Part shown: in pieces, positions 11,926 to 42,535 of the stretch
Layout of the letters: every line of letters begins with the position of its first letter
How positions within the stretch are numbered: position 1 is the first letter of the stretch
Source of the DNA: Phycisphaerales bacterium
GTDB taxonomy: Bacteria > Planctomycetota > Phycisphaerae > UBA1845
Direction of reading: 5' to 3'
DNA: 63,597 bases
Assembly: GCA_013140575.1 (NCBI GenBank)
Contig: JABFSN010000048.1
Span: forward strand, 1-63,597
Program-made: the position numbers and the translations under genes
The notes under the pieces: generated by a model
Database searches by the model: none
Told to the model about the DNA's origin: nothing
The model's input: only the letters and a program-made list of their open reading frames with translations

Positions 11926-11962
11926 GGGATGATCCCCTCCGTGTCGTGCGTGTTCAGCACTT

Positions 11963-12095
11963 CTGCCGGCGGCTCCTCCGCCCCTGCCGGGGCGGGAATT
12001 CGTGCGGGACGGAATCCACGGGTTGCGCGATGCGGCGCATCGCTCCACCCGTGGCTACCGTCCGCCGCCCCTACAGGGGCGGAAGAACAGCACGG
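11963..12095. repeat. Composite palindromic repeat, GGGGCGG module
   Basis: Contains CCGCCCCTGCCGGGGCGG and CCGCCCCTACAGGGGCGG at the ends and a central CCACGGGTTGC...CCACCCGTGG. An inverted homologue with the same order lies at 36832-36945 (CGTGGAGCGAGGCGC and AACCCGTGG). It fills the gap between the manA stop and the upstream membrane protein gene. Confidence 0.65.
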
Positions 12096-12139
12096 CGCAA
12101 GCCTTCGCTAAACATCAACTCCGCTCCATTCCCTGCGTT

Positions 12140-32507: not shown

Positions 32508-32752
32508 GGCTACCTCGCTTGTTTTCTATGAAACCGTAAATGGAAATCGGCTCTTTTTGATCGGCGATCGCAACGCCATGTATCACCCGCGCCTCGGCGT
32601 CGCAATCCCCGTCACTCACCCATTGCTCTAGCATCGCAAAACAAGTTCGTCAAGCCCCATGTTGATTCTTCCCCGCCGGCACTGACAGCCAGCGGCCGAC
32701 GGCATACACTCTCACGCGGGGTCCGGTGAACGGCCGCGGAAACGGGAAAACC
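32508..32752. other. Short gap upstream of the membrane-TPR gene
   Basis: 245 bp of divergent upstream DNA, expected to hold promoters for the haem/NHL pair on one side and the TPR gene on the other. I do not see a convincing hexamer pair or a gene. Confidence 0.4.
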
Positions 32753-35698
32753 ATGATAACCGTCGCCCAGCCGCGTCGAATGCCAACGACCGCGTGGGCG
32801 GTCATCGTTTTCACGACTGGCTGCGTTGTCGGCCTGCCGTCGTTGCGCGGCGGATTCCTCAGCGGCGATGACTACCACCTGCTACTGAACCACGTCCTGG
32901 TGAACCACCCGTCCATTTCCCACGCCCTCGAACTGTTCACCATCGTCCATCGCGATTTGTACCAACCCATCCCCATGCTCAGTTTTTCGATCGACTTCGC
33001 CATCGTGAACGCGCTCGGGCTGAACCCCACCGCCACCGGCACAAGCGCCGGTGCATGGGTATTCCATCTGACCAACATTCTGATTCACGCCCTCAACGCC
33101 ACGCTCGTCTTCTTCGTCCTCCGCCGGCTCGTGAAATTCACCGCGCGGGCCACTGCTTCGTACGGGTCCAGCGTCCCGCAGGGACGCGGTGAATGTAGCC
33201 CAGCACTTCAGTGCTGGGATAATGCCCCGCTTTCGATTCCTAGTCCCGAAGGGACGGCTGAAGTCGAACGCGCGGCGTTTCAGCCGTCCCTGCGGGACTC
33301 GGCGCCTTCCGCGCCGGCGTACCCCGTATTGAAACACGGGGCGACATTCACGCCTACTCGCGGCGGGCAAACCGCGGAGACGCCAAACACGTTCACTGCG
33401 GCGGCGGGGGAATCAACTCCCCGCCCACACAACGCCACCACCCCACTCATCGACTCGGCCATCTTGCCGGCCATCGCCGCCGTCATCTTCGCCCTCCATC
33501 CCCTGACCGCCGAACCCATCGCCTGGCTCAACGGCCGCATGATGCTGCTCAGCGCCTGCTTCACGCTCGCCGCCCTGCTCGCGTTCGATCGCTGGAACGA
33601 CCGCCCGTCGGCATCCCGTGCAATTGCGACACTCCTGTTCACCCTGCTGGCCCATGCCAGCAAGGTCAGCGCCGCCCTGCCCATTCTGATCGCGGTCTTC
33701 GCATTGTACCGCCGCCGCAAACCGACCCGTCGCTGGTGGGCGATGTGGGGCGCCGTCACCGTGGTGACGGCCGTGTTCGCGGGCTTCGCCGCCGTCTCCA
33801 GCCAGGGCATGATCGACGACGCCCGCGCGGAAATGTCCGCCCCGCCGGCCATCTATTGCCTGCTCGCCCTCGGCCAGTACTTCCGCCAGTTCCTCGCCCC
33901 CATCGGGCTGTCGCCGTGGTATCCGCCCCCTCAACAAATAGGCTGGACCGACCCCCGCGTGCTGACCGCCGCCGCGGTTATCGCGGCCGTCATCATCACC
34001 GTGATCGTGTCCGGGCGCTACACCCGCGTCGGCATTTTGGGAATGACCTGGTTCCTGTTCGCCGTCGCCCCGACGCTGCCGTTCGTACCCGCCCGGCGCT
34101 CGATCGGCGCCGACCGCTACGTCTACCTGCCCAACGTTGGTCTCGCTTGGATCGCCGCCACCGCCATCGTCGCCCTTTATGTGTGGTTCAACCGTCGCGC
34201 CGTATCTCCTCGCGCGGGTGCCCCACCCCGTCCTGGGGTGGGGGACCGACGCATGGCGCGGGCTAGCGCATTGCTCGCCGGCACCATCGCCGTCTTCGCA
34301 TTGATCTTCACCAACTGGTCCGCCCAGTCGCACTTCGCGACCAACATCGCCCAGGCCCATCGCATCATCCAACTGAACCCCGATTACCCCGGTGTCTACG
34401 AATCCGCCGCCTGGGCCTATTTCCGCGAAGCGCGTTTCGAAGAAGCCATCGACATCGCGCACGAAGACCTCAACCGCCATCCCGCAACCATGGCCTGCGA
34501 GGTCTACCAGGTCATCGGCATGGCCCAATTGCGCTTGAACCGATTCGAGGAGGCCGTCGAGACGCTGAAAAAGGCCGTCGCCGCCAATCCCGAATATGGG
34601 AAAGCCTATTCACGGCTGGCCAAAGCGCAGGAAGAGACCGGTCGGATTGAAGAAGCCATCGTCAATTACGAACGCGCCGCCGAAATCATGCCCCAGTACA
34701 ACCCCGGCCTGCTGGAATTGGCCGCCGCCTACCGCTCGGTCGGCAGAACCGACGATGCCGTCCGCCTGTACCAACGCGTGTTAAACATTAACGCCTTCGA
34801 CGTGACCGCCCAATTGGCGCTCGCGGAAATCGATCTCGATCAACAACAATTCGCCGCCGCCGCCGCGCGTCTGACCCAACTGCTCGACTGGATGCCCGAA
34901 AACGCCGTCGCCCGCACCAACCTCGGCGTCGCCCATGAAGGCCTGAATCGCTTCGACGATGCCATCGTCGCCTATCGCGAAGCGCTCGATCGCGACGAGC
35001 ACGCGGTTGTGGCCCTTGTAAACCTCGGCAACCTATACCTGCGCGCGAACCGCGCCGATCACGCCCGGAGCCTGTTTCTTCATTTTGTGCCGTCAAACCC
35101 AACCGACCAACGGTTGCTCTCCGCCTTCCACGATTTCGCCGTGCGTATCAACGAGCCGAAGCTGGCGGCCGACCTGCTCCGGCGAATGTCCGGGATGTTC
35201 TTGGACGACGATTGGCCTCGCCTCTACGCGGCATACGCCTGCGCGCAGTCCGGCGACACGGATCACGCGGACCAACTGCTCTCGTACTATCGTTCGTTCA
35301 CCGGTTTTCCGGCTCCGGCCGCCCGCCCCGAACCGTGCCAATTCGGAGGTTGCGCGCTGACCGAACTGACCCAGATCCTGATCTCGCTCTACCGTGGCCA
35401 CCCCGACGATGCCGCACGCCGGGCGGAGTTCGTGCTGACGCTCAAGAGCCCATTCCCGCCCGACGCCCGCGACCGCCTGGTCGCCGACATGCAACGCTTC
35501 GCCGAATCGCACCCGTCCGACCCCTGGCCTTATTACATCACCGCGCTGGTCCTGATCGCCCAGCATCAGCCCGATTTCGCGCGACTGGCCATCGACGAAT
35601 TCCTGACCCGCTGCCCCGACGACGCCTGCCGCGCCCGTGCCGACGGCTTGCGCTCGCGGATCGACGCAGGATCGCCGGACCCGGCCCGAACGGAGTGA
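32753..35698 (+). CDS. Membrane-TPR protein (TMTC/GT-C-like N-terminus)
   Basis: A 981-residue protein. The N-terminal half has about eight TM helices. The first loop, LRGGFLSGDDYHLLLNHVLVN, contains a GDD element typical of the GT39/TMTC-like O-mannosyltransferase-type fold; HLTNILIHALNATLVFF and HPLTAEPIAWLNGRMMLLS are further family features. The C-terminal half is TPRs (YESAAWAYFREARFEEAIDI; YGKAYSRLAKAQEETGRIEE; ARTNLGVAHEGLNRFDDAIV). Residues about 140-213 are an in-frame insertion encoded by a palindromic repeat cluster, absent from the fold. A glycosylation role is plausible but unproven. The start at 32753 (MITVAQPRR) was chosen over earlier frames without a ribosome-binding site. 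Confidence 0.8.
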   Translation: MITVAQPRRMPTTAWAVIVFTTGCVVGLPSLRGGFLSGDDYHLLLNHVLVNHPSISHALELFTIVHRDLYQPIPMLSFSIDFAIVNALGLNPTATGTSAGAWVFHLTNILIHALNATLVFFVLRRLVKFTARATASYGSSVPQGRGECSPALQCWDNAPLSIPSPEGTAEVERAAFQPSLRDSAPSAPAYPVLKHGATFTPTRGGQTAETPNTFTAAAGESTPRPHNATTPLIDSAILPAIAAVIFALHPLTAEPIAWLNGRMMLLSACFTLAALLAFDRWNDRPSASRAIATLLFTLLAHASKVSAALPILIAVFALYRRRKPTRRWWAMWGAVTVVTAVFAGFAAVSSQGMIDDARAEMSAPPAIYCLLALGQYFRQFLAPIGLSPWYPPPQQIGWTDPRVLTAAAVIAAVIITVIVSGRYTRVGILGMTWFLFAVAPTLPFVPARRSIGADRYVYLPNVGLAWIAATAIVALYVWFNRRAVSPRAGAPPRPGVGDRRMARASALLAGTIAVFALIFTNWSAQSHFATNIAQAHRIIQLNPDYPGVYESAAWAYFREARFEEAIDIAHEDLNRHPATMACEVYQVIGMAQLRLNRFEEAVETLKKAVAANPEYGKAYSRLAKAQEETGRIEEAIVNYERAAEIMPQYNPGLLELAAAYRSVGRTDDAVRLYQRVLNINAFDVTAQLALAEIDLDQQQFAAAAARLTQLLDWMPENAVARTNLGVAHEGLNRFDDAIVAYREALDRDEHAVVALVNLGNLYLRANRADHARSLFLHFVPSNPTDQRLLSAFHDFAVRINEPKLAADLLRRMSGMFLDDDWPRLYAAYACAQSGDTDHADQLLSYYRSFTGFPAPAARPEPCQFGGCALTELTQILISLYRGHPDDAARRAEFVLTLKSPFPPDARDRLVADMQRFAESHPSDPWPYYITALVLIAQHQPDFARLAIDEFLTRCPDDACRARADGLRSRIDAGSPDPARTE
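33171..33390. repeat. Composite palindromic repeat inside the membrane-TPR gene
   Basis: GCGTCCCGCAGGGACGC, CCCAGCACTTCAGTGCTGGG and GGCGTACCCCGTATTGAAACACGGGG occur in the same order as in the intergenic copy at 39513-39688 (cores TGAATGTAGCCCAGCACTTC and GACGCCAAACAC are shared). Here the whole cassette is read through in frame. Confidence 0.8.
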
Positions 35699-35839
35699 CG
35701 CGCCGTGGACCCGCGGCCGTCGGCGTGGAGTTGCGTACGACCGCTGCGTTCGTTGTCACCCAATGGTAAACCACTACAACGCGAGGACGTTTCCGGCGTG
35801 ACCGCCCAACTGGCCGCATTCGCGCTGGGAACGCCGCTC

Positions 35840-35985
35840 TTTGCCCCGAAGGGGCTACAGTCAGTAGCCGGGGGTCTAGTCCGCGACAGCGGACGTAACC
35901 CCCGGAACCGGTGACCATCCACAAAACCAGCCCCAGCGGGGCGAAAGAAGGGCTGGCGCGTGTCGTGTTCATAGCGTTGTATTAT
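35840..35985. repeat. Composite repeat with inverse GGCTATTGACTG core, copy 2
   Basis: GCCCCGAAGGGGCTACAGTC near 35850, then GTCCGCGACAGCGGAC and a GCCCCAGCGGGGC hairpin. It is the inverse complement class of the elements at 10418-10530 and 42418-42535. It fills the gap between the TPR gene and trpF. Confidence 0.65.
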
Positions 35986-35987
35986 TA

Positions 35988-36698
35988 ATGCCAACGATCC
36001 GAATCAAAATCTGCGGCGTGACCACGGTGGACGACGCCCGCGCCGTCGCCGATCTCGGCGCAGACCTCATCGGATTGAATCTCTACGACGGTCCCCGAAA
36101 AATCGACGTCCCCCGCGCGTCCGAAATCCTGAATCAACTGCCCGCGTCCATCACCCCCGTCGTCCTTCTCGATGCCGCCGCCGGCCGCATCCCCCGTGAA
36201 CTGATCGAACGACACCGCATCACCCATCTCCAGCTGTACGGCCCCGTCGCACCCGATCTGATTCGCGCGCTGAGCGCCGACGGTTTGCGTCCCATCTACG
36301 TTGCCGCCGCCGTGACCGCCGCGTTCGTCTCCGACGTGCAACGGTTCCTCGACGCCTGCGGCGATCGCCCGCCCGCTGCGATCTTGCTAGACGCCGTTGC
36401 ACCCGACCGCGCCGGCGGCACCGGTCGCCGCGCCGATTGGGACGCCATTCGCCACGCCCGCGAGATTGGACGAACCAACGGCTGGCCGCCCATCTGGCTC
36501 GCTGGCGGCCTGCGGCCCGACAACGTCACGGACGCCATCCGCATGGTCCAGCCGGACGTGGTCGACGTGTCCAGCGGCGTCGAGTCGTCCCCCGGCCGAA
36601 AAGACCCGTCGGCCGTCGACGCCTTCGTGCGTGCCGTTCGCGAGGCGCAACCGGCGCCCCGCGACACCGACGGCTCGGCGGCGAATGTACGTGATTAG
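35988..36698 (+). CDS. trpF: Phosphoribosylanthranilate isomerase
   Basis: Tryptophan pathway enzyme that isomerises N-(5'-phosphoribosyl)anthranilate. A TIM barrel starting IRIKICGVTTVDDARAVADL carries the family's catalytic Cys. VVLLDAAAGRIPRELIERH, ITHLQLYG and the phosphate-binding loop PIWLAGGLRPDNVTDAIRM are present; DVVDVSSGVESSPGRKDP is the conserved C-terminal block with the second phosphate site. No other trp genes are adjacent, so it is a stand-alone locus. The stop codon lies inside a repeated motif (GTACGTGATTAGCG), which has replaced or created the last few codons. Confidence 0.95.
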   Translation: MPTIRIKICGVTTVDDARAVADLGADLIGLNLYDGPRKIDVPRASEILNQLPASITPVVLLDAAAGRIPRELIERHRITHLQLYGPVAPDLIRALSADGLRPIYVAAAVTAAFVSDVQRFLDACGDRPPAAILLDAVAPDRAGGTGRRADWDAIRHAREIGRTNGWPPIWLAGGLRPDNVTDAIRMVQPDVVDVSSGVESSPGRKDPSAVDAFVRAVREAQPAPRDTDGSAANVRD

Positions 36699-37221
36699 CG
36701 TGCGAGACCCGGCATCAGAGCCGTGGGTGCAAGCCCACGGGGGACATCGTGAGGCAAGACCCCCCGCCAAGTCGTCGACCGGCTGGCGCCCGGTACGTGA
36801 TTAGCGCCCTGCCGGCGTCAACGTGCATTCCGCCCCGATAGGGGGGCAGGCATGTAGCCACGCGTGGAGCGAGGCGCAGCCTCGCGGAACCCGTGGAGGA
36901 CATCCGCGTCATTCCCCCGCCCCGGGAGGGGCGGAGGAACCGACCGGCGCGACGCTGATCATGTGCGGCGCCCGGTGCTTTGATCGCCGAAGTCCCACGC
37001 TAATCACGCACTGCGCCCGGTGCTCTGATTTAGGAATGCAGATGCTGATCACGTCCCGGCGAATCGACGATAACCATTTGTAAATACAGCAGTTGCGCTG
37101 CACTCGATAAGTTCCGACGGGCGGGTTTCGAAGAATGTCCGGGAATTCCACATATTTTCCTTGTGTCCATCGCCCGGATTTGCTAACTTAACGGCTGGTA
37201 CCGGGGGCTGACCGTCGCGGT
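36699..37221. repeat. Repeat-rich region downstream of trpF
   Basis: Holds five copies of the GTACGTGATTAGCG motif in both orientations (36687-36700, 36793-36806, and diverged inverse copies near 36953, 36998 and 37043). Between them are the GGGGCGG module at 36832-36945 and GCGCCCGGTGCT(C/T)TG elements. No gene is supported here. The region ends shortly before the first surface-protein cassette. Confidence 0.65.
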
Positions 37222-37389
37222 TTGATCCCGGGCGCTGTTTCGAGACCGTTGACTTCGTACCGGCGTGCCGGTACGGTGGTGTTCGACGGTTGGGTTGGAC
37301 TGGTTGGGGAAACGGCTCATTTCGGTCGGCGGTTGGATGAATCGCCGGATATTGAAATTCGCGCCGGTTGGACTCCGCAGGGTTGGTTC

Positions 37390-38082
37390 ATGCGGAAGGC
37401 GATTAAACACAAGCAAGCTGCTCAGTCACGCATTGGCGCTCGCGGGGCGATTCTGCTCGTCGCGTCGCTGATGGTCAGCGCCTTCCTGCTGTCCGTCAGC
37501 ATCGGCTCGCCCAGTCACGGCTGGCTCGGCTGGTTGACGCTTCCACCGCTGTTTCTGGCCATTCGTTACGTCGCCCCGGCCGGTGCCGCCGTTTGCGGCG
37601 GCGTGTGGGGCGCATCCCTTTTCGTCTTTTCGTCGACCATCATCGACACGCCGATCAACGCATCGGTCGGATCGCTTGCACTGCTTCTCTTGGTGCCGGC
37701 GGCCTACGCGGGCCTTGGTTCGTGGCTCACCCGTACGCGGATCGGTTTCAGCCCGTTGATTCTCGCGGCGGCGTGGATCGGCGTGGAGTACGCCCTAGCC
37801 CCGCTGTCCATGCGCTTCGGACTTCTGGCCGGCGTTCAGGCCCGCGGCAGCTTTTTGCACGCCGCCTCCGGCCTGTTGGGCTATGCGTTCGTCGCGTTCG
37901 TGATCGCTTATCTGAACGGTCTGTTTCTCGCGGCCGTCACCGGCCTGCGATTCCAGATTCCGCAGTTCACTCGCTCGCAATCGAAGGTCGCGCCCCGTGG
38001 GCGCGTCGTCGATCACTACGTTCCTCTCCCGGTGCGGGTCGCGTCTGACACGCGTCAAGCCCGGGCACCTCCGCTCCAATAG
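37390..38082 (+). CDS. Lnt-N-like membrane protein, cassette 1
   Basis: A 230-residue membrane protein with about six helices. The arrangement GWLTLPPLFLAIRYVAPAGA, AVCGGVWGASLFVFSSTII, AGLGSWLTRTRIGFSPLILA and AAWIGVEYALAPLSMRFG matches the N-terminal transmembrane region of apolipoprotein N-acyltransferase (Lnt), but the catalytic nitrilase-like domain is missing. The C-terminal 40 residues are basic. The homologue at 40164 sits before the second IPTL-CTERM gene in the same order. It may help lipid or protein trafficking to the surface; no activity can be assigned. The start at 37390 (MRKAIKHK) is preceded by an AGGG-like site; a longer start upstream is less likely. Confidence 0.7.
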   Translation: MRKAIKHKQAAQSRIGARGAILLVASLMVSAFLLSVSIGSPSHGWLGWLTLPPLFLAIRYVAPAGAAVCGGVWGASLFVFSSTIIDTPINASVGSLALLLLVPAAYAGLGSWLTRTRIGFSPLILAAAWIGVEYALAPLSMRFGLLAGVQARGSFLHAASGLLGYAFVAFVIAYLNGLFLAAVTGLRFQIPQFTRSQSKVAPRGRVVDHYVPLPVRVASDTRQARAPPLQ

Positions 38083-38161
38083 AACGCAAGCGGGCTCCGT
38101 CGCCTCGTGGGTGTCGGGGTTCGGGGTGTGGTTGAGGGGCGACCCGACCCACACGCGTTCG

Positions 38162-38231
38162 CCGTGATTCGGTTTCACGGGTTCACAGCTTCGTCTGCGT
38201 CTCATACCAAGTGCGATGTGGCTGTTTGAAC
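38162..38231 (+). promoter_or_regulatory. Two-hairpin leader before IPTL-CTERM gene 1
   Basis: Hairpin 1: CCGTGA (38162-38167) pairs with TCACGG (38175-38180). Hairpin 2: GTTCACAGC (38181-38189) pairs with GCTG plus TGAAC (38221-38231), with a two-base bulge. The segment CAGCTTCGTCTGCGTC between the arms is shared with the leader of gene 2. The start codon is 36 bases downstream behind CGGAGG. Confidence 0.55.
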
Positions 38232-38266
38232 GAAGGATGGTTTCCTTTAACGGAGGTATTTGAGTA

Positions 38267-39376
38267 ATGAGTAAGTTTTGGATGAAGAGTCTGGCCGTCC
38301 TCGCCGTCGCGTCGTTGACGACGTCGACGCTGGCGGCCCGGAACGCGTTGCTGCTGACCCCGGAAGTGATTCCGGCGGGCACCGTGAACATCGGGATCAT
38401 TCACCCGAATGGACCCGGTTCCAGCGGCGGCACGCAGGTCATTTACGATTCGTTTAATGAGTACAGCGGGTTCTTCAGCCGTCCCGTGTCGGGCCGGTAT
38501 TTCTTCGACGATGTCGAGACGACGTTGGACAACGTCAACGGCGGGATCATCGACTCGTACGACGTCATCGCCCGCAGTTCGATCACCTTTACGTCCGCAG
38601 GTCCGCCGGTCGTGAATTGCCCGGCTGAAGCGGCGACTGCCTTCGACGCGATCACGACGATCTGGCGCGACTTCAATTCGCCGCCGGACGTGCACATCAC
38701 CGGCGAGCCGCTGTCGCCGATCGCGGGGACGACCTGCAATTTCATCGGCATCCCCAAGGCCGTCATCGCCCAGTTGAGCTGCCCGGTGGGCGTTCCCGCC
38801 AACGGTCAGTTCTGGGTGGGCACGAGCTACTCGTCGGACTGCGCCGGCTGGGCGATCGCCGGTCTGGCCCCGCCGAGCATCGGCTTCTCGGACGACTTCT
38901 TCGCCCGCAGCTTCGATGCCACGGGAAGCGGCCCGTACAACTTCTTCTTCTTCGGCGGCTGCCCGCCGGTGGGTGGGAACTGCGCTTCGTTCCTGGCCCA
39001 GGTTCTGGGTCACGAAGCCGGTCCGGACGCCTGCTGCGATACGGTGACCGACCTGTGCTCGAACGAGAACCCCGGCGATTGCCAGGGCGCCGATCAGGTC
39101 TACACCGAAGGCGTGCTGTGCAACGATCTGCCCGACCTGTGCTCGGACGCCGGCGCTTGCTGCGACACCCTCACCGGTGATTGCAGCGCGTCCTTCGCGT
39201 CGCTCTGCTCGGGCATCTTCGAAGAGTTCACGGCCGGTGCGTTGTGCGCCGACGTGACCTGCGTGGGCGGCGATAACGTTCCGACGGTTTCGCAGTGGGG
39301 CATGATCGCATTGACGGTCATCCTGCTGTCGGGCCTGACGATCAAGTTCGGCCGCCGTCGCGCCGTGACGGCCTAA
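38267..39376 (+). CDS. IPTL-CTERM surface protein, cassette 1
   Basis: A 369-residue exported protein. A signal peptide spans about residues 1-23 (SLAVLAVASLTTSTLAARN). A beta-rich N-terminal domain (GGTQVIYDSFNEYSGFFSR) is followed by a Cys-rich middle, with motifs GACCD, TGDC and LCSD repeated (DACCDTVTDLC, DAGACCDTLTGDC). The C-terminus is a sorting tag: VPTVSQWG, a TM helix (MIALTVILLSGLTIKFG) and RRR. This is the IPTL-CTERM signal recognised by exosortase H, which lies 3.3 kb downstream. The start has CGGAGG nine bases upstream and a leader shared with gene 2. A strong terminator follows. Confidence 0.9.
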   Translation: MSKFWMKSLAVLAVASLTTSTLAARNALLLTPEVIPAGTVNIGIIHPNGPGSSGGTQVIYDSFNEYSGFFSRPVSGRYFFDDVETTLDNVNGGIIDSYDVIARSSITFTSAGPPVVNCPAEAATAFDAITTIWRDFNSPPDVHITGEPLSPIAGTTCNFIGIPKAVIAQLSCPVGVPANGQFWVGTSYSSDCAGWAIAGLAPPSIGFSDDFFARSFDATGSGPYNFFFFGGCPPVGGNCASFLAQVLGHEAGPDACCDTVTDLCSNENPGDCQGADQVYTEGVLCNDLPDLCSDAGACCDTLTGDCSASFASLCSGIFEEFTAGALCADVTCVGGDNVPTVSQWGMIALTVILLSGLTIKFGRRRAVTA

Positions 39377-39416
39377 TACCGTCGCGGTTCGCGGTTTTTT
39401 GTTAGCTGTTCTCAAG

Positions 39417-39450
39417 CCCCGGCGGGTTAAATGCCCGCCGGGGTTTTTTT
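39417..39450 (+). terminator. Rho-independent terminator of IPTL-CTERM gene 1
   Basis: Perfect 10-bp stem CCCCGGCGGG/CCCGCCGGGG with a 7-base loop, then seven T. A nearly identical terminator follows gene 2 at 42137-42175. Confidence 0.9.
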
Positions 39451-39512
39451 GTTTTCGCGCTGCACGCGTATAGCGTCCCAAGTATGTGTATGGCGTCCTC
39501 AATACGCGTTCG

Positions 39513-39780
39513 GCGTCCCGCAGGGACGCGCTGAATGTAGCCCAGCACTTCAGTGCTGGGATGACGGCGCCGCTAGGAACCCATAGTCCCGTCGGGACTC
39601 GGCCGCATGGCGTTTCCGGCGTACCCCGCGTTGAAACGCGGGGCTACATTCAGGCCTGCGGCAGGCAACCCACCGGGACGCCAAACACATACGAAACACC
39701 GGGCTACATTCATGCCTGCCTGTCTGCGGGAGGCAAGCCGTTGAATCGGAAAATGCGCAGGAGACTCGCCGGGAGTTAAG
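39513..39780. repeat. Composite palindromic repeat, intergenic copy of the element in the TPR gene
   Basis: Same order as at 33171-33390: GCGTCCCGCAGGGACGC, CCCAGCACTTCAGTGCTGGG, CGTACCCCGCGTTGAAACGCGGGG, GACGCCAAACAC. A further partial unit follows to about 39745 (GGGCTACATTCATGCCTGCC). No gene here. Confidence 0.8.
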
Positions 39781-40163
39781 TCTCTTTTCGAATCCCCGCT
39801 GGCTCCGAGACTTGCCGTAACTACTAGGAAAATCAACCGTTTACGGCGTCGGCGGCGCCTGCGTCGTGCATCCCCACGAATATCCGCCGGCGAATTACCG
39901 CGGAATCTTGTTGCAATCCCCGATGTCCGCCGTTAGTATCCACGCTGTTGGGGGAGGTTGGCGCCCGACAACGCCGTCATCGGCGATTGTGCAGGACGCT
40001 GGGGAATAGACGGTTTTCACGTCCTTTCGCCCGCATCCGAACAGGAAAGACCACGCTTTTTCTTGGTTGGAGAACGCGGGGATGAATGCGCGCTTCGAAA
40101 CAACTCGACGGCACGCCGCGTAGCTCGTGGCATGAGCGCCCCACCCGTAATTCGACGGGTCGG

Positions 40164-40904
40164 ATGCGCGGGCCGGGGCGTCTCCGACCCCGATCGCCCG
40201 CTCCGCTCCTGGTTGCGGCACTGGTTGTCAGCGCCCTGCTGATGGCGGTGGCCGTCGCTCGGCCGGGACTACCCTGGCTGGGATGGTTGACGCTGCCGCC
40301 GATTTTTCTCGCGGTGCGTTATCTACCGCCGCTGCGCGCCGCCGGCGCCGGGCTGGTGTGGGGCGCGTCGCTGTTCCTGTTCTCCATGCTGTTCCGCTCG
40401 ACGCCGATCGACCCGTCCTTCGGAGCGCTGGCGCTGTTGGCCGTTGTACCGTCGGCGTACACCGGTCTGGGTTCGTGGCTCACGCGGACGCGGGCCGGGT
40501 TCAGCCCCCTGCTGCTGGCCACCGCGTGGATCGGCGTCGAATACGCGCTGCGTCCGCTGTCGCTGCGCTACGGACTTCTGATCGGCGATCAGACGCAAGG
40601 CCGATTCCTTCACGCCGTGTCCGGCCTGCTGGGGTACGGATTCGTCTCCTTCGTCATCGCCTACGTTAACGGGTTGCTGCTGACCGCGGTGACCGAACTG
40701 CGCTGGCAACCGCCGCGCTTCACCAGCATCGTCCGTCCGGACGGCCTCGTCGGGCCGTCGGGCGATCGCATCATTCCATGTCCGGCGGTGTCCGCGTCGC
40801 GTTCGTCGCGACCGCGGGCCCCTCCGGTTGTTTGGTCCATCGTTCGCGCCGCCTCGTGGGTTGGCGCGGGCGCCGGTGCCGTTGGGTTGGCAGCGCCACC
40901 GTGA
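40164..40904 (+). CDS. Lnt-N-like membrane protein, cassette 2
   Basis: A membrane protein of about 246 residues, clearly homologous to the protein at 37390: PWLGWLTLPPIFLAVRYLPP, GLVWGASLFLFSMLFRSTPI, GLGSWLTRTRAGFSPLLLAT and AWIGVEYALRPLSLRYG line up along its length. It again lacks the nitrilase domain of a full Lnt. It precedes the second IPTL-CTERM gene by about 100 bp including the conserved leader. The start at 40164 matches the length of copy 1; a start 26 codons upstream gives an N-terminal tail not found in copy 1. Confidence 0.7.
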   Translation: MRGPGRLRPRSPAPLLVAALVVSALLMAVAVARPGLPWLGWLTLPPIFLAVRYLPPLRAAGAGLVWGASLFLFSMLFRSTPIDPSFGALALLAVVPSAYTGLGSWLTRTRAGFSPLLLATAWIGVEYALRPLSLRYGLLIGDQTQGRFLHAVSGLLGYGFVSFVIAYVNGLLLTAVTELRWQPPRFTSIVRPDGLVGPSGDRIIPCPAVSASRSSRPRAPPVVWSIVRAASWVGAGAGAVGLAAPP

Positions 40905-40908
40905 CACG

Positions 40909-40967
40909 CCGTGAACGATTTCACGGAGAACAGCTTCGTCTGCGTCCATACCCAACGTGAAGCTGTT
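40909..40967 (+). promoter_or_regulatory. Two-hairpin leader before IPTL-CTERM gene 2
   Basis: Hairpin 1: CCGTGAA (40909-40915) and TTCACGG (40920-40926) with tetraloop CGAT. Hairpin 2: AACAGCTTC (40929-40937) and GAAGCTGTT (40959-40967), a perfect 9-bp stem. The stretch CAGCTTCGTCTGCGTC is identical to the leader of gene 1. The start codon lies 40 bases downstream. Confidence 0.6.
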
Positions 40968-41006
40968 TGGACTGAAACGATTTTTTTGTACGGAGGATTG
41001 AACGTA

Positions 41007-42098
41007 ATGAACAAGACTACGATTCGGACGCTGAGCGTCCTGGCAGTGGTTTCGGTCACTTCGGTGACCCTCGCGGCGCGGAACGCGCTGCAAATGACCG
41101 GGGAGCTGTTGCCCGCGGGCACGCCCAATCTCGGCGTGTTTGGTGAAAACGGCCCGGGCGCGGGCGGCGGCGTGGAAATCATTTACGATTCCAACAATGG
41201 TTTCAACGGCTTCTTTTCGCGTCCGCTGATCGGTTCGATTTTCGCGGACGACATCATCACCACCTTCGACAACGTGCAGGGCGGGATCATCGACTCCTAC
41301 AATCTCGCGGTAATCGGTTCGTTGACCAGCACGGCCGCGCCGGCCAATTGCCCGGCCGAAGCGGCGATTCCGTTCGACGTCACCACGGGCATCTGGGCGG
41401 ACAGCGAGTCGCCGCCCGACCCGCAGGGCGCCGGTCAGCCGTTGGCGCCGATTGCGGGGGCGACCTGCAACTTCATCGGCGTGCCCAAGGGCGCCGTCTT
41501 CACGCTGAATTGCAATGTCGGCGTTCCGGCCAACGGCCAATTCTGGGTGACCACCCAGTTCTCGTCGCACTGCGGCGGTTGGATGGGCGCGGGTGCGGCG
41601 GCGCCCGCCGTCGGCGACTCGGCCGACTTCTTCGGACGCAGCCTGACCGGCGGCGCGACGTGGAGCTTCTTCTTCTTCGGCGGATGCGCGAGCACGTTCG
41701 GCTGCGCCAGCTTCAACGCCCAGATTCTGGGCCACGAAGCCGGTCCGGACGCCTGCTGCGACTCGGCGACCGACCTGTGCTCGAACGAGTTCCCCGGCGA
41801 TTGCCAGGGCGCCGACCAGGTCTACACCGAAGGCGTGCTGTGCAACGATCTGTCCGATCTGTGCTCGGACGCCGGCGCTTGCTGCGACACCCTCACCGGT
41901 GACTGCAGCGCGTCCTTCGCGTCGCTGTGCTCGGGCATCTTCGAGGAGTTCACGGCCGGTGCGTTGTGCGCCGACGTGACCTGCGTGGGCGGCGATGACG
42001 TTCCGACGGTTTCGCAGTGGGGCATGATCGCGTTGACGGTCATCCTGCTGTCGGGCCTGACGATCAAGTTCGGCCGCCGCCGTGCCGTGACGGCGTAA
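41007..42098 (+). CDS. IPTL-CTERM surface protein, cassette 2
   Basis: A 363-residue paralogue of the protein at 38267. Signal peptide (SVLAVVSVTSVTLAARN), then the N-terminal domain (GGVEIIYDSNNGFNGFFSR), the Cys-rich middle (DACCDSATDLC; DAGACCDTLTGDC) and the tag VPTVSQWG-TM helix-RRR. The last 110 residues are nearly identical to copy 1, while the N-terminal domain has diverged, which points to gene conversion or constraint on the Cys-rich and sorting region. It has GGAGG upstream and the same leader. The two genes probably express related surface layers or sheaths. Confidence 0.9.
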   Translation: MNKTTIRTLSVLAVVSVTSVTLAARNALQMTGELLPAGTPNLGVFGENGPGAGGGVEIIYDSNNGFNGFFSRPLIGSIFADDIITTFDNVQGGIIDSYNLAVIGSLTSTAAPANCPAEAAIPFDVTTGIWADSESPPDPQGAGQPLAPIAGATCNFIGVPKGAVFTLNCNVGVPANGQFWVTTQFSSHCGGWMGAGAAAPAVGDSADFFGRSLTGGATWSFFFFGGCASTFGCASFNAQILGHEAGPDACCDSATDLCSNEFPGDCQGADQVYTEGVLCNDLSDLCSDAGACCDTLTGDCSASFASLCSGIFEEFTAGALCADVTCVGGDDVPTVSQWGMIALTVILLSGLTIKFGRRRAVTA

Positions 42099-42417: not shown

Positions 42418-42535
42418 ATGCGGGTCTGCCGCCCCTCCGGGGCTTTTTCGTGGGGGATGACGGGTCCGGGGGCTAACGCCCCCGGCTATTGACTGTCGCC
42501 CCTTCGGGGCTATCCGAAAACGGAGGGACGGCGCA
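42418..42535. repeat. Composite repeat with GGCTATTGACTGTCG core, copy 3
   Basis: The 28-bp core at 42484-42511 is identical to 10485-10512. It is preceded by GCCCCTCCGGGGC and CCGGGGGCTAACGCCCCCGG hairpins. Confidence 0.75.

Follow-up and report, generated by a model that had tools for sequence, protein, structure and literature searches.

The host gene and its loop

The window, meaning the whole stretch of 63,597 nucleotides analyzed here, contains a forward-strand reading frame of 990 codons with no internal stops. It encodes a polytopic membrane protein with several TPR repeats within its C-terminal half; its membrane half may resemble the eukaryotic TMTC proteins. Within this gene lies a 235-nt mobile element, read in frame in the loop between two predicted membrane helices. 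The gene and the parts of the element are as follows.

32726-35698, + strand: host gene, 990 aa, encoding a polytopic membrane protein whose C-terminal half carries the TPR repeats
33152-33159, + strand: left 8-bp target duplication ACTGCTTC, 6/8 identical to the right one
33160-33394, + strand: in-frame MITE copy, 235 nt, defined by genome matches, terminal repeats and duplication, and absent in orthologues
33160-33173, + strand: left terminal inverted repeat GTACGGGTCCAGCG, 3 mismatches against GTACGTGWTTAGCG
33172-33218, - strand: end module matching Acido-Lenti-1 (RF01687, 40.4 bits), a hairpin with the GTAG-CCCAGCACTTCAGTGCTGGG REP signature
33239-33302, + strand: central palindrome AGTCCCGAAGGGACGGCTGAA..TTCAGCCGTCCCTGCGGGACT, arms 92% complementary
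33322-33341, + strand: second REP-like hairpin CCCCGTATTGAAACACGGGG, with an inverse CTAC tail in other copies
33381-33394, - strand: right terminal inverted repeat GAACGTGTTTGGCG, 2 mismatches
33395-33402, + strand: right target duplication ACTGCGGC, decayed

A preliminary description had reported a palindromic repeat captured in frame at residues ~140-213 of this protein. The in-frame reading holds, with slightly shifted borders: the inserted residues are 145-226, including the right duplication. Two features of this copy weigh against the insertion model proposed below: its duplication is identical at 6/8 positions (at least 6 are identical in 2.5% of mispaired flanks) and its ends carry 5 mismatches.

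We assembled 38 orthologue rows from 29 relatives' loci and 9 named loci (35 distinct after accounting for 3 duplicates), all from genomes outside the host genus. The loop, bounded by helices at residues ~112-136 and 248-272, has 111 residues in the host protein versus 4-70 in all 38 rows, and exactly 5 in 20 of them. Removal of the element and one duplication leaves a loop of 30 residues, inside the relatives' range. The segment is missing from every row, distant orthologues included, so that the host gene alone among its relatives is interrupted by the element. Together with the variable length of the loop, this supports the earlier suggestion that insertion into a loop can be tolerated; distant orthologues with the segment, named in the preliminary description as its refutation, did not turn up. 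The same comparison speaks against an assembly artefact. A repeat-induced misjoin might be suspected in a metagenome bin of 268 contigs with many repeat copies, but it would fuse unrelated genes, whereas both flanks here belong to one gene with frame and order as in the orthologues. We give this explanation almost no credence.

An AlphaFold2 model, built from an alignment of 9 sequences, assigns residues 149-241 a pLDDT below 50 and no secondary structure; this low-confidence segment is flanked by helices at 110-147 and 246-257. The best 50 matches of a structure search with the model are TPR and similar helical-repeat proteins. As a separate observation, one orthologue of the TPR protein (L051, from genome G021) has a 70-residue loop with internal repeats at the same place. 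This may be another captured repeat; G021 also has 18 sites of the element end described below.

A MITE family in the genome

The repeat is present in many copies. The host genome comprises 5.05 Mb in 268 contigs, and a DNA search of it with the segment gave at least 81 matches (the best 40 of 113 candidates were scored). The first 40 are at separate places, with lengths of 160-240 nt and 79-88% identity excluding the query; later ones are mostly cross-matches between palindromes. Alignment of 31 copies revealed a near-symmetric layout, in which GTACGTGTTTAGCGTCCC and its reverse complement form the two ends and enclose two GTAG-tagged hairpins in inverted order plus a central palindrome. The 14-nt end GTACGTG(A/T)TTAGCG occurs at 149 sites with at most 1 mismatch (75 forward, 74 reverse), versus 3 for a reversed-pattern control. 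Paired ends enclose mostly 141-142, 153-157, 174-175, 185 or 234-239 nt. Outside this genome, the end sequence was found at 120 sites in a second genus (G006) and at 10-18 sites in each of G021, G037, G002, G035 and G027; elsewhere counts are near control.

The flanks of 47 complete elements show identity at a length of 8 only, with a mean of 0.75 versus 0.28 for mispaired flanks. The 8-bp duplication is exact in 18/47, compared with 0.4% of mispaired flanks, and at least 7/8 identical in 30/47; one window row in this set (36793-37011) is mispaired, its true partner being at 36966, and was kept in the 47-element count and, as a non-hairpin, in the target-site counts given below. The identity at 8 bp marks target-site duplications, and the elements are therefore MITEs. 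Their other traits agree with this: they measure 96-370 nt, occur in dozens of copies and have no transposase gene inside. Quite different bodies carry the common terminal repeats and 8-bp duplications.

Further copies and related modules are present in the window itself.

11946-12119, + strand: element of the 174-nt class, duplication 5/8
36687-37056, + strand: element with the same ends, hosting a nested one, perfect duplication CGGCGAAT
36793-36966, + strand: the nested element, 174-nt class, perfect duplication GGCGCCCG
39502-39692, + strand: second copy, internally deleted, 191 nt, intergenic, found by sequence match
39514-39560: Acido-Lenti-1 module of the second copy, Rfam match
42466-42511, + strand: free-standing Acido-Lenti-1 double hairpin, REP-like, 54.1 bits

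The intergenic homologue, previously placed at 39513-39688, is thus present with slightly wider borders. It is aligned with the in-frame copy over 60 nt at 93% identity (33161-33220 versus 39503-39562) and over further blocks at 84-88%; it is without the central palindrome, and its flanks are identical at 2/8 positions, hence no duplication. Adjoining this truncated copy, at 39462-39515, a 20-nt unit similar to the element end is repeated three times in tandem (starting at 39462, 39482 and 39502). The nested pair at 36687-37056 and 36793-36966 is bounded by two different perfect 8-bp duplications. Together with the terminal inverted repeats and the duplications across the genome, this nested insertion supports the proposal that such elements move. 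Around the hairpin at 42466-42511, no element end was found within 2 kb at up to 3 mismatches.

Two secreted proteins encoded nearby (38267-39376 and 40911-42098) are similar to each other and both end in a PTVSQWGM..TIKFGRRR motif, which we take to be an IPTL-CTERM-like sorting tail. Each of their reading frames is preceded by one for a related membrane protein (37222-38082 and 40086-40904), forming a tandem duplicated pair.

Reading frame, age and constraint

The size of the in-frame copy is compatible with the host frame: 235 nt plus one 8-bp duplication make 243 nt, or 81 codons, and cause no frameshift. The commonest sizes among the 47 complete elements, 236 nt (13 copies) and 237 nt (8 copies), would each shift the frame when combined with an 8-bp duplication. 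The reading frame used by the in-frame copy is open in just 1 of 25 other complete copies, likewise of 235 nt. Some frame through the element is open in most of 70 elements; these open frames were not counted as evidence of genes, and proof from orthologues exists for the TPR copy alone. A copy at positions 1535-1735 of locus L102 stands in an open frame immediately upstream of a pilin-like reading frame, where the frame through the element may be a spurious 5' extension.

The in-frame copy diverges from the consensus by 15.6%, ranking 23 of 26, and is therefore not a recent arrival. A further question is whether its 81 residues serve the protein, as the preliminary description allowed in calling such insertions possibly domesticated. 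The frame has stayed intact despite 34 differences over 218 sites. However, it also stays open in 28% of random-substitution trials, which is not rare, and the 34 differences fall 8/13/13 at codon positions 1, 2 and 3 (of 71, 73 and 74 sites). There is no third-position excess, which argues for tolerance and not domestication. As the segment is moreover predicted to be disordered and is absent in every orthologue, we regard a function for the insert as very unlikely. The simplest reading is that the captured segment is a tolerated, neutral loop extension.

Insertion at hairpin axes

Empty target sites were rebuilt for the 30 elements with duplication identity of at least 7/8, and hairpin axes were called by fixed scoring (stem of at least 5, loop of 0-6). 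A hairpin was present at 26 of the 30 rebuilt sites, and in 25 of those 26 its axis lies 3.0 or 3.5 nt from the duplication centre; the sites are not wholly independent, since L009, L086, L095, L015, L022 and L092 are among those sharing one repeat family. Among 2635 control positions from the same loci, 21% have a hairpin nearby and 60 (2.3%) show the 3.0/3.5 offset. The axis stands at one end of the duplication, which therefore begins at the hairpin tip and extends along a single arm. No strong common letters are shared by the 26 hairpin sites, every position holding at most 0.6 bit. The targets are hairpins of varied sequence, cut at their axis.

The pattern extends to G006, where 27 of 41 elements have a duplication. 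Hairpins underlie 21 of these 27, all with offsets of 2-4, and the 3.0/3.5 offset is found in 14/27 versus 2.6% of controls.

A hairpin repeat, CCACCGCTTCAGCGGTGGGGGAGTCG, has 22 genome matches versus 0 for the control. The flanks of the in-frame copy, CCACTGCTTC and ACTGC-GGCGGCGGGGGAATC, resemble it in a by-eye alignment with transitions and a 3-nt gap. The copy's own site falls outside the 22 pattern matches, and the hairpin there is no longer intact. At L024, an element occupies the same kind of target as the in-frame copy in the same register.

RAYT genes and Acido-Lenti-1

The genome has 8 Y1_Tnp loci, and several connections to the elements were observed. In 11 of 30 cases a target site matched sequence lying no more than 1.5 kb from one of the 8 Y1_Tnp genes, compared with 3 of 300 random 24-mers (matching over 24 nt with at most 4 mismatches). 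Acido-Lenti-1, which the end module of the 235-nt element matches above the gathering cut-off, has at least 147 matches in the genome at E<=0.001 (the best 150 of 1573 candidates were scored), some of them under the gathering score. At one of the genome's own loci (L080), copies at 1293-1338 and 1915-1960 bracket a Y1_Tnp gene and are oppositely oriented. Among the relatives, where 20 of 30 loci were scanned, similar inverted pairs enclose Y1_Tnp genes in two other genera (L215 and L218), and L217 has a copy on one side of the gene. A MITE-like module sequence is present in 3 of 38 Y1_Tnp loci (flanks of L215, L218 and L220) versus 0 of 59 controls at E<=1e-4. On account of these inverted pairs and the MITE-like module beside Y1_Tnp genes, Acido-Lenti-1 in these genomes resembles a REP associated with RAYTs.

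This differs from its present listing. Acido-Lenti-1 (RF01687) is catalogued as an sRNA in the accessible part of its source (PMC2864571), and a 2026 paper, as far as its available text goes, describes its function as still little known (PMC13298647). The end module agrees with the family in scoring above its cut-off; the context differs, being that of a REP beside RAYT genes and of a MITE part. In the literature surveyed, in which few subscription papers were reachable, a description of Acido-Lenti-1 as a REP was not found.

These connections raise the possibility that a RAYT (Y1 HUH) transposase directly spreads the element, which would then be a REP doublet (BIME/REPIN) and not a MITE with terminal repeats and target duplications. 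The body does contain GTAG-tagged hairpins in inverted order, and the genome has eight Y1_Tnp matches. The end module matches Acido-Lenti-1, a neighbour of RAYT genes, and is similar to sequence beside RAYT genes in three other genomes. To our knowledge, neither target duplications nor shared terminal repeats are expected of REPs spread by RAYTs, yet 8-bp duplications and common terminal repeats surround quite different bodies. Furthermore, the terminal repeat is never paired around any of the 8 Y1_Tnp loci, nor does the whole element flank them. Direct spread by RAYT is consequently improbable. Nor was a GTAG hairpin of the element's type found around these loci, and spread by RAYT stands only as a rival reading.

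Candidate movers and proposed mechanism

An autonomous transposase with the same ends was not found among IS66, 30 DDE_Tnp_1 loci, 40 single-end places and the 8 Y1_Tnp loci. IS66 elements have 8-bp duplications and GTAA ends; the family is absent from the host genome. Of the 30 DDE_Tnp_1 loci, just L140 is bracketed by end-like sites; their flanks agree at 2/8 positions, hence no duplication, and we judged the pairing to be chance. Inspection inward of the 40 single ends (up to ~7 kb, mostly ~3.6 kb) recovered short elements only. Longer end pairings of 3242, 2173 and 1498 nt carry 6-7 mismatches and were likewise judged to be chance.

On balance, we are confident that the segment is one member of a MITE family in a Phycisphaerae-like genome, with hairpin-axis targets, a putative transposase acting in trans, survival through a compatible frame and subsequent neutral drift. 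In the proposed sequence of events, a putative DDE-type transposase would act in trans and cut the two strands 8 bp apart, nicking one of them at the tip of a hairpin repeat that pre-existed in the loop DNA. The in-frame copy would have survived because element plus duplication is divisible by three and the forward frame lacks a stop. It probably now contributes ~81 disordered residues that drift without detectable amino-acid constraint.

A broader model is plausible but tentative. The hypothetical transposase may read the shape of folded DNA (a cruciform or single-strand hairpin) and not its sequence, placing one cut at the hairpin tip and the other 8 nt along an arm. REPs spread by RAYTs, including Acido-Lenti-1, might then be both landing pads and cargo, such that each of the two transposition systems feeds the other. 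Acido-Lenti-1 itself might be a mobile REP and not a dedicated sRNA.

Comparison with known systems

Several components of this picture have precedents: in-frame MITEs, IS insertion at REP axes and REP dimers in genes are known, according to the accessible parts of the literature. Rickettsia palindromic elements (RPE; Ogata et al. 2000, 2002) are ~150 bp long with nearly half inside genes, and in-frame MITE fusions are termed 'not unusual', in the available text of a review (PMC10969869). Like the elements described here, RPEs are palindromic mobile repeats found in frame in unrelated genes; as far as that text goes, they differ in that the present family has one proven gene case, size classes with common terminal repeats, 8-bp duplications and hairpin-axis targets. 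QMITE2 of Coxiella burnetii is close in anatomy: this MITE measures 150-190 bp, has 7-11 nt direct repeats, includes a GTAG REP and at times lies within ORFs in frame (PMC5896051). Its host and size classes differ, and the hairpin-axis target rule was not seen in the accessible part of its description.

Insertion at a palindrome axis is shared with ISPsy8 and ISRm22, which insert at the symmetry axis of palindromic REPs. According to the accessible text, each REP-targeting IS is tied to one REP family and the repeats it generates are shorter, 6 bp in the case of ISRm22 (PMC1525189), whereas the elements described here use hairpins of many sequences, contain no transposase and have an 8-bp duplication that extends from the axis along one arm. 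GTAG REP dimers and clusters inside ORFs encode 20-82 amino acids, and some dimers lie within palindromes, as do those reported here; they are attributed to RAYTs, and target duplication is not described in the main text of that source (PMC3733652), in contrast to the 8-bp duplications of the present family. The literature surveyed, again with few subscription papers reachable, yielded no MITE family with 8-bp duplications at the axis of many-sequence hairpins. The MITE family and its hairpin-axis targeting look like a new form of an otherwise known kind of element.

The in-frame capture provides a clean example of a selfish repeat turning into protein sequence without detectable selection. 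The target rule is testable, as it states that transposon sites share a hairpin axis and not letters. The results also suggest a mobile identity for Acido-Lenti-1, an 'sRNA' of Rfam. If confirmed, the target rule would link REP biology with DNA cruciforms and transposition and account for the nested mosaics of palindromic repeats in these genomes.
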